Assembly: GCA_905233825.1 (NCBI GenBank)
Contig: CAJOFE010000004.1
Span: 62,001 to 126,000, forward strand
Length of the DNA: 64,000 nucleotides
Direction of reading: 5' to 3'
From: an uncultured Prevotella sp.
GTDB lineage: Bacteria; Bacteroidota; Bacteroidia; Bacteroidales; Bacteroidaceae
Part shown: positions 20,638 through 22,579 of the stretch, one piece after another
Layout of the letters: every line of letters begins with the position of its first letter
How positions within the stretch are numbered: position 1 is the stretch's first letter
Notes under the pieces: generated by a model
What the model saw: the letters and a program-made list of their open reading frames with translations, nothing else
What the model was told of the DNA's origin: nothing
The model's database searches: none
Translations under genes and position numbers: made by a program

Positions 20638-22485
20638 ATGGCAAAAGAAAATTTTGTACTAACACTACCGTTAAGGGTTGAGAAATGTCATGCTGACATT
20701 CTTGACAAGCGTTATGAGCTGTTGCGCCAGATGTACAACATGGTGCAACAGAAGTTAGTACGTCAATACATTTATTTTTCGCAGCAGAAGGCTTACAAGG
20801 CCTGTGAGAACTTTGAGCAAAAGAGAGAATTCTTTAATACACACCCTTTCCACTTTAAGGGTATCAAAGGGAAGGATGGTGAACTGAGTGACATCAAGTT
20901 TCCCTATACATATGAAAGTAGAAGCAGTTCATCAGGCAAGAGACCATCAGGCGGTATTTCTGACTATGTGTCAAAACTGTGGTCACACAGAATAGGCCAA
21001 GACAAGAATTTGGCTGATTTTGGTTTGAACGGTTCTATTATGGAAGAACTGGGTCTGCATATTATGAAGGCTTGGGAAGACCGTCTTTACAAATTCAAAA
21101 CAAAGTGTGTTTCCTTCAAGGGTTATGGCGAAATCAACTCATTCGGCTGTCGCTATCATAAAGGAAATTTCGCAGGGTTTAGCATCAACTTAGAAGAAGG
21201 TTTTATTACTTTTAATACAAACGGACGACGTGGTCAGTATGCTGATATAATCACACTTCCAATCGATTTTAGTCGTGAGAAAAGAGGCTATGCTGCAGAA
21301 GCCCTCAAAGGTGGTGTTGACAGCCTGAGAAAGTTGGTTATCGTCAGGAGATGCATACGAGGCAGAAACAAATACTATCTGCAACTGTCCATTGGTGGCG
21401 AAAAGCCACAAAAGGGACGCACCTTGGGTATGGGCAACGTGGGCATCGACATTGGCCCATCTACGATTGCCACATCTTCTCTTCAAGGCGTTCACTTTGA
21501 CAAAATGGCCGACAAGTGCGACAATATTGAGCACGAACTTTATCTTATAAACCGCAAGATTGACAGAAGTCGCAGGGCCAACAATCCTGATAACTATAAT
21601 CCAAACGGTACCATTAAGCGTGGCGTACGTTTGGTTTGGAAAAAAGACAAAGATGTCAAGAGATACGCCTCGCTGAAACAGAAAAGAAAGGAGTTGTATC
21701 GCATGCAGGCTGAAACCAGAAAGCAGCAGCATCTGGAGATGGCGAATGCCATGCTATCGCAGGGCGATACGTTCATTGTGGAGAACAACCCCATCGACGC
21801 TTGGGTACGTAGAGCCAAAGAAACAAGAAAGACTAAGACGGGAAAGTATCGAAGCAAAAAACGTTATGGTAAGTCTGTAGCCAATCACGCTCCAGCTATG
21901 TTTATTACCATTCTTGAGAACAAAGTCAAGTCTCTTGGTGGTAAGTTTCATAAGGTGGATCCAAGTTACGCCGCCACGCAATTCGACTTTACGAATGGTG
22001 TGTTTACAAAGCATGAGGTTAGCGAGCGTAGTATCACACTAAGCAATGGTCGCACTCATCAGCGTGATATGCTTTCTGCATTTAATCTTCAGCACGCAAG
22101 GCTGGAAGTAGAGAAAGCAAAAAGCAGAGATAAAGAAAAGAAAGTAGAAAGCTACGATATAGAACAAATGCAGGCTGACTGTCCTATCTTCTGCCGACTG
22201 GAAACAGCAGAGCAGAAACGATTCAAGGATGCTCGGCGCAACGAACGTGATGCACTATTCTTTGTTGGTGCATTTGCAAAGGAATTGAGGCACGAGCCTC
22301 AGGAAGAAACGGTCGCTAATCGCCACAATGGTGGCGTTGGCCGAAAACATTGTAATACTCTGTGTACAGAAAACGCAAAAATAACAGGTAGCGGACTTGT
22401 CCGTGAGAGTATAGCGCGAGTTTCTGAAGCCCCAGAAGAATGCTATCATGCTGGTCATCAAGCCATTATTCTTGATGGGCTGTAA
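20638..22485 (+). CDS. TnpB/Cas12-like RuvC RNA-guided nuclease, zinc finger apparently absent
   Basis: Split RuvC motifs: VGIDIGPSTIA (D, codon 21448), DTFIVENNPIDAW (E, codon 21781), RDMLSAFNLQHA (D, codon 22066). No CxxC...CxxC between RuvC-II and RuvC-III. Other TnpB-like blocks: NRKIDRSRRANNPDNYNPNGTIKRG, SKKRYGKSVANHAPAM. Confidence 0.9.
   Translation: MAKENFVLTLPLRVEKCHADILDKRYELLRQMYNMVQQKLVRQYIYFSQQKAYKACENFEQKREFFNTHPFHFKGIKGKDGELSDIKFPYTYESRSSSSGKRPSGGISDYVSKLWSHRIGQDKNLADFGLNGSIMEELGLHIMKAWEDRLYKFKTKCVSFKGYGEINSFGCRYHKGNFAGFSINLEEGFITFNTNGRRGQYADIITLPIDFSREKRGYAAEALKGGVDSLRKLVIVRRCIRGRNKYYLQLSIGGEKPQKGRTLGMGNVGIDIGPSTIATSSLQGVHFDKMADKCDNIEHELYLINRKIDRSRRANNPDNYNPNGTIKRGVRLVWKKDKDVKRYASLKQKRKELYRMQAETRKQQHLEMANAMLSQGDTFIVENNPIDAWVRRAKETRKTKTGKYRSKKRYGKSVANHAPAMFITILENKVKSLGGKFHKVDPSYAATQFDFTNGVFTKHEVSERSITLSNGRTHQRDMLSAFNLQHARLEVEKAKSRDKEKKVESYDIEQMQADCPIFCRLETAEQKRFKDARRNERDALFFVGAFAKELRHEPQEETVANRHNGGVGRKHCNTLCTENAKITGSGLVRESIARVSEAPEECYHAGHQAIILDGL
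22276..22478 (+). ncRNA. Candidate omegaRNA/tracrRNA-like structured region overlapping the 3' end of the nuclease ORF
   Basis: Consecutive perfect hairpins: TGAGGC-ACGA-GCCTCA (22286-22301), CGCCAC-AATG-GTGGCG (22321-22336), GCGGA-CTTG-TCCGT (22391-22404), CATCAAG-ccattatt-CTTGATG (22456-22477, 1 nt before repeat 1). Confidence 0.45.
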
Positions 22486-22579
22486 ATGGCCTCAAAAATG
22501 ATGGTAGTTACAAGCTTGCCGTTGCCGTACCGCCAGTGCCGCCAGCTGTAAATGGCCTCAAAAATGATGGTAGTTACAA
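22479..22579 (+). CRISPR. Minimal repeat-spacer-repeat unit (35/31/35)
   Basis: GCTGTAAATGGCCTCAAAAATGATGGTAGTTACAA at 22479-22513 and identical at 22545-22579. Unique spacer gcttgccgttgccgtaccgccagtgccgcca (22514-22544). The repeat carries terminal TGTAA/TTACA inverted repeats. Confidence 0.7.

Follow-up and report, generated by a model that had tools for sequence, protein, structure and literature searches.

The pair of direct repeats in the window (i.e. the whole 64,000-nucleotide stretch of DNA from an uncultured Prevotella sp. that was analysed here) is with high probability a minimal CRISPR array, namely that of a compact type V CRISPR-Cas operon derived from TnpB, whose guide RNA scaffold appears to be embedded in the effector gene. 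The sequence-only reading had noticed the repeat pair, while it overlooked the adjoining effector gene and the embedded tracrRNA. Its suggestion of a type V array agrees with the Cas12/TnpB-like gene that abuts the repeats, with the multi-spacer arrays of relatives, which share the 66-bp period, and with the phage matches of two spacers in one of these relatives.

In the model that we favour, a single promoter near position 20612 would drive one transcript carrying the effector mRNA, the scaffold, repeat 1, spacer 1, repeat 2 and the terminator (Table 1). The scaffold (~190 nt at the end of the effector gene) would continue straight into repeat 1 and, since the two are contiguous, scaffold, repeat 1 and spacer 1 could fold as one RNA in the manner of the TnpB omegaRNA or of engineered single guides; additional repeats could pair with the scaffold in trans via the anti-repeat. 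With the RNA presumably processed, the effector would bind the guide RNA, its RuvC site would cut spacer-matching DNA, and this strain would presumably gain immunity.

Table 1. Features of the candidate operon, in positions of the window
Feature	Position	Strand	Basis
Bacteroidetes -7 element TATCTTTG (TAnnTTTG), 26 nt before ATG	20612..20619	+	position across loci
cas12/tnpB-like effector ORF, 615 aa	20638..22485	+	profile matches, conserved columns, Foldseek
tracrRNA-like scaffold in the 3' end of the ORF (residues ~550-615)	22285..22478	+	homology; 5' boundary approximate
Hairpin CGCCAC-AATG-GTGGCG in scaffold	22321..22336	+	sequence, predicted fold
TTGTAAT element, complementing repeat 3' end GTTACAA/ATTACAA	22350..22356	+	complementarity
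Anti-repeat TGCTATCAT, pairing with repeat ATGATGGTA (22498-22506)	22441..22449	+	fixed position, compensatory changes
CRISPR repeat 1 (36 nt)	22479..22514	+	exact copies, relatives' repeat length
Spacer 1 (30 nt)	22515..22544	+	protospacer searches without match
CRISPR repeat 2 (terminal; G-to-A change in its final base, 22580)	22545..22580	+
GC-rich hairpin AAAGGGAGCC/GGTTCCCTTT, then T-rich stretch	22659..22690	+	sequence, genome repeats

Effector gene and repeat pair

The effector is predicted to be a TnpB/Cas12-like single-protein nuclease with three RuvC motifs, and catalysis is predicted as well; the three acidic RuvC residues, placed by motif at D271, E382 and D477, do not vary among 48 relatives. 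Among protein profiles, it matches guided_TnpB of NCBIfam (NF040570, E 6e-14, under that model's score cut-off) and, of the PADLOC profiles, Cas12u2 (E 3.5e-8) and Cas12f (E 4.5e-7, 27 bits, for a profile that carries no curated cut-off), while its scores stay below the cut-offs of the named type V families (e.g. 22.9 of 350 bits for c2c8 of NCBIfam). A search of PDB sequences with the single effector sequence gave no match at E<=10. Foldseek with the AlphaFold2 model (mean pLDDT 70) retrieved TnpB (ISDra2, 2e-11), Cas12f (7e-11) and LaTranC (9jfq, 6e-9), as well as Cas12p and Cas12m, at an identity to the matched structures of 10-15%.

The protein belongs to a family with effector sizes of ~520-615 aa, for which 934 matches were found at E <= 1e-3; the best 120 of these are 52-93% identical and nearly all without a name, and intact homologues at 80-93% identity occur in metagenomes. 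All loci in named genomes are from Prevotellaceae, Bacteroidaceae or other Bacteroidales, many of them from the rumen. The family is sparse, with an effector in 9 of 400 genomes of the taxonomic family and in 1 of 395 across the order; in the scan of genome contigs a single-protein query matched nothing, and the loci were recovered with an alignment-based query. No effector relatives were found in IMG/VR. Two effector relatives (L036 and L038, 48-49%) lie between small repeated genes, and neither an array nor scaffold RNA was found within the DNA fetched for them.

The repeat itself was described by the sequence-only reading as an exact 35-bp direct repeat with copies 66 bp apart and TGTAA/TTACA inverted ends, and this description is borne out: there are two identical copies (22479-22513 and 22545-22579, period 66 bp), the inverted ends are present, and these two are the only copies in the window at <=3 mismatches, where shuffles expect 0. 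Dispersed copies, which that reading had named as an observation that would speak against it, were not found at <=3 mismatches in the rest of the 3.33-Mb genome. Of the proposed 35/31 size, the 35-bp identity stands and the 31-nt spacer does not, since the repeats of array-bearing relatives are 36 nt long and end in ...TTACAAG or an equivalent, with spacers of 30 +/- 1 nt, which gives a unit of a 36-nt repeat and a 30-nt spacer for the window as well. The stop codon of the effector (TAA, 22483-22485) falls within repeat 1, as the final codons are ...GAT GGG CTG TAA, of which CTGTAA is part of the repeat.

The hairpin downstream of repeat 2 is a probable operon terminator, going by its stem and the T-rich stretch behind it; a scan for consensus terminators did not flag it. 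The intergenic flanks (22629-22767 and 20152-20494) recur in the same genome at 76-92% identity, and these recurring parts include the terminator-like hairpin (in similar copies) and a longer repeat at L075. In an empty-site comparison synteny differed in the nearest genome, and therefore no borders of an element were set.

The probable scaffold at the 3' end of the effector gene

Effector residues ~546-615 are conserved among relatives and absent from a group of 528-aa relatives, which lack this tail because the same sequence sits upstream of their ORF as RNA; an earlier view of the 528-aa relatives as arrayless was wrong, as their arrays were found upstream of the ORF. In three further loci (L013, L015 and L017), the scaffold nucleotides follow the stop codon and are untranslated. 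In all arrangements, the scaffold (~190 nt) directly precedes the first repeat. A tree of 30 effectors has one group per arrangement, i.e. embedded in the clade of the window (96/92), after the stop in its sister group (80/59), and upstream in the third (82/93), where the RNA has a promoter of its own and lies together with the array, so that the minimum number of changes suffices. Being translated, untranslated at the 3' end or upstream in three clades, the scaffold is therefore conserved as RNA, and the tail of the window's clade is best read as RNA in the main. In the tail, third codon positions take 0.33-0.38 of the differences, an even spread, compared with 0.53-0.67 for the body (single-pair p values of 3e-5 to 0.012), and the tail is predicted to be disordered in the AlphaFold2 model (pLDDT ~24-33).

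The placement of promoter elements follows the position of the RNA. TAnnTTTG, the Bacteroidetes -7 promoter consensus, is found 26-36 nt before the ATG in 8/8 loci with the RNA 3' of the ORF; in the upstream-RNA clade, 14/15 loci have it immediately ahead of the RNA, ~200 nt from repeat 1, and three ORF starts examined there were without it. Whatever the arrangement, each locus would thus seem to yield a single transcript.

The anti-repeat starts about 38-42 nt before repeat 1 and has its partner at repeat positions ~20-28. The two covary among loci (TGCCATC/GATGGTA, TGCCACC/GGTGGTA, ATGGCCA/TGGCTAT and ATGACTT/AGGTCAT, and further TATCACCA/TGGTGGTA and TGGCCTAT/GTAGGCTA), and when own and swapped repeats are compared, the own pair is better in most of the diverged loci, with exceptions among the close ones. 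With its conservation over ~190 nt and its covarying anti-repeat, the RNA is, as far as sequence comparison can tell, a tracrRNA. A second pairing element, between tracr -18 and repeat 5-13, is weak in L009/L012; strong pairing of this kind is confined to the window and the upstream-RNA clade. The TTGTAAT element and the repeat end possibly form a pseudoknot beside the guide; this pairing of the element (TTGTAA, or TTGTCA in the other clade) with the bases that immediately precede the guide has weaker evidence, and in the predicted fold the repeat end TTACAA alternatively pairs with TTGTAA of the upstream RNA. No Rfam family reached its gathering score, the weak matches being chance.

Why the frame through the scaffold is kept open is less obvious. 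Of 104 clade proteins, 90 terminate at the stop codon of repeat 1 or are a single substitution away from it, while independent column shuffling of the tail puts in-frame stops in 40-52% of sequences; the other two frames of the tail hold 3-9 stops. Since stops are rarer than the shuffles predict, open reading seems to be favoured, whereas the residues are not. A pure RNA constraint would not obviously explain this, and it is a matter of speculation that a link between translation and guide production keeps the frame open. Three proteins (P0104, P0048 and P0068) read through the repeat stop (e.g. ...LDGCKKPPK) into repeat and spacer, and a few relatives are frameshifted at the repeat.

As for the order of events, the sequence after the stop codon of a distant outgroup (G379, 40% identical) resembles the 5' part of the scaffold by eye, a likeness to which nhmmer gave no score, and no array was found at this locus. 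Named TnpB relatives at 31-32% identity (in Clostridioides, Bacillus, Cetobacterium and Geobacillus phage E3) likewise have an RNA-like region after the stop. Probably, therefore, the RNA was ancestrally 3' of the gene, and its upstream position is a derived one. Sequence likeness of TnpB omegaRNA to the tracrRNA of this family was not convincing when set against shuffles; the similarity would lie in the layout alone, with a 5' element that pairs with the last bases before the guide.

Arrays of relatives and alternative readings

Arrays were found at 28 loci, the window included, with 2 to 41 repeats of 36 nt each and a total of 146 spacers, all of which are distinct and almost all 29-31 nt long. 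The array with 41 repeats (L031:3322-5960) has two spacers that match one phage contig in IMG/VR (L061) at 30/30 and 29/30; a portal-like protein is encoded on this contig as well (judging from its ORFs), and the two spacers overlap by 22 nt on a single phage site. In the same array one spacer is present twice, the second time trimmed by one base. Such overlapping and trimmed spacers suggest repeated acquisition from a favoured target. The two overlapping protospacers have no flanking motif in common that could be taken for a PAM. Most other spacers of the family had no match among 50,697 phage records, and three more spacers from relatives had none in IMG/VR.

Several relatives are incomplete. 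In L028:6001-7539 the array is intact and the effector frame is broken early, 51 aa from the matched start, through a frameshift or an assembly error. A decayed copy in the same genus (L006/L008, G028:C4 ~17600-17950) retains scaffold RNA and a degenerate repeat, the effector body being gone, and its upstream neighbour gene reads like the Res subunit of a type III restriction system. Two remnants (L040:6001-6174 and L048) consist of the first ~59 effector codons alone, at 78-79% identity.

Searches for cas1 found it in 8 of 10 host-genome handles of relatives, among which two pairs stand for one genome each; the gene belongs there to systems that have different repeats and look I-B-like, V-A-like or II-like (types judged from repeats and ORFs). 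One such host (G543, that of L012) has a Cas12a-type array at L082:~8888 with a repeat, GGCTATAAGCCC..., that resembles the 5' half of the family repeat, (G)GCTGTAAAAGGC, which may be chance or may reflect common recognition by the spacer-acquisition machinery. In the host genome of the window (92.6% complete), no cas1 was found. A protospacer for the window spacer was likewise not found in phage records, in IMG/VR (exact 30-mer), in its own genome or in 300 genomes of the genus. The sequence-only reading had thought it plausible that the spacer derives from a phage structural gene and proposed a search of phage and metagenome databases; with no protospacer returned, this origin is not supported. 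The single match of a 20-mer search in IMG/VR lies in a Gly-rich ORF of an unrelated phage, and as a protospacer this ORF was rejected, its identity of 22/30 being judged chance.

With a single spacer without protospacer and no cas1, the locus may not acquire, or even use, spacers, so that the copy in the window may be either live with a fixed spacer or a relic. As a relic, it would be a formerly active system that is stuck at one spacer, no longer adapts and perhaps does not interfere, in line with its lone spacer, the one-base change in its terminal repeat, the genome without cas1 and the decayed copies among relatives (L006, L040/L048). Set against this are the intact effector with its conserved catalytic residues and intact homologues at 80-93% identity, the intact anti-repeat of the scaffold and the perfect repeat 1, which make a relic rather unlikely, though a possibility to be taken seriously.

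The other alternatives concern what the locus is. An IS200/IS605-like TnpB transposon with a tandemly duplicated right end, in which the repeat is the 3' handle of the omegaRNA and the guide is derived from transposition, would fit the nearest named relatives, which are IS605 TnpBs at 31-32% identity (one with TnpA beside it), the placement of the RNA, which TnpB likewise has at its gene's 3' end (PMC8612924), and the arrayless outgroup with RNA-like sequence after its stop. It would not account for up to 41 regular repeats with all-distinct 30-nt spacers at sister loci or for two spacers matching one phage, and no TnpA is present among the neighbouring ORFs read in the window; the sister-locus arrays thereby largely refute this reading, which we consider very improbable. 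Hardly more probable is that the tail (546-615) is a genuine protein domain conserved at the protein level rather than RNA, since the open frame, with its 90 of 104 proteins ending at or one substitution from the repeat stop against 40-52% of shuffles with stops, is offset by the lack of codon-position bias, the conservation of the homologous nucleotides where they are untranslated, and the predicted disorder. A chance or ordinary dispersed repeat without any CRISPR link, to which the small copy number alone would point, is refuted by the shuffles, by the genome search and by homologous repeats beside the same gene in other species, and its probability is practically nil.

Comparison with known systems

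There is value in intermediates that document the step from one omegaRNA to a tracrRNA and a repeat array, and with three arrangements of one RNA, as well as an outgroup that seemingly has a 3' RNA, the order of steps becomes directly testable. The family also offers a compact nuclease (~520-615 aa) with a natural single-guide layout, and exemplifies how a coding frame can overprint a guide-RNA scaffold. More tentatively, and with a somewhat smaller chance of being right than wrong, it could be a living intermediate between TnpB and Cas12, having a natural single guide within the effector frame, an incomplete split of omegaRNA into tracrRNA and, as autoregulation that keeps the frame open, competition between translation and guide production. 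If this is true, translation of the effector and production of the guide would compete on the same transcript.

TranC systems, intermediates between transposon and CRISPR, combine a TnpB-like nuclease with a CRISPR array; the likeness of the window effector to LaTranC is one of fold alone (9jfq, E 6e-9, about 15% identity). Type V-A (Cas12a) has similar 36-nt repeats and ~30-nt spacers, but it has no tracrRNA and a much larger effector, and the 3' end of the window repeat differs from the V-A stem (compared with L082). With E-values of 6e-52 and 2e-53, the best named relatives are an ISCbt1-like protein of Clostridioides phage AR1086-1 and ORFB of Geobacillus virus E3, which align over ~82% of the protein at 31-32% identity. 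As in IS200/IS605 TnpB, where the reRNA matches the 3' end of the gene (PMC8612924), the RNA of the window lies at the 3' end of the effector gene, but no TnpA is present among the neighbouring ORFs read, a CRISPR repeat takes the place of the transposon right end, and its relatives carry multiple diverse spacers.

Type V-F (Cas12f) and the type V-U candidates (c2c8, Cas12u2/u4 of PADLOC) likewise combine a compact TnpB-like effector with an array, Cas12f moreover with a tracr-like RNA, and here too no cas1/cas2 were noticed beside the effector. The window differs from them in its 10-15% identity to solved structures and its sub-threshold family scores, and in a tracrRNA that lies within the coding frame and is contiguous with repeat 1. 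Only a subset of type V subtypes have cas1/cas2, and about 50 events from TnpB to type V have been inferred, with V-U as a catch-all group (PMC12669027), and the family of the window may be among those ~50 events or in the V-U group. Apparently, it is an uncharacterised, TnpB-derived type V CRISPR-Cas family, of which the scaffold within the effector frame, the stop codon in repeat 1 and the three arrangements within one family were not matched here to any described system.
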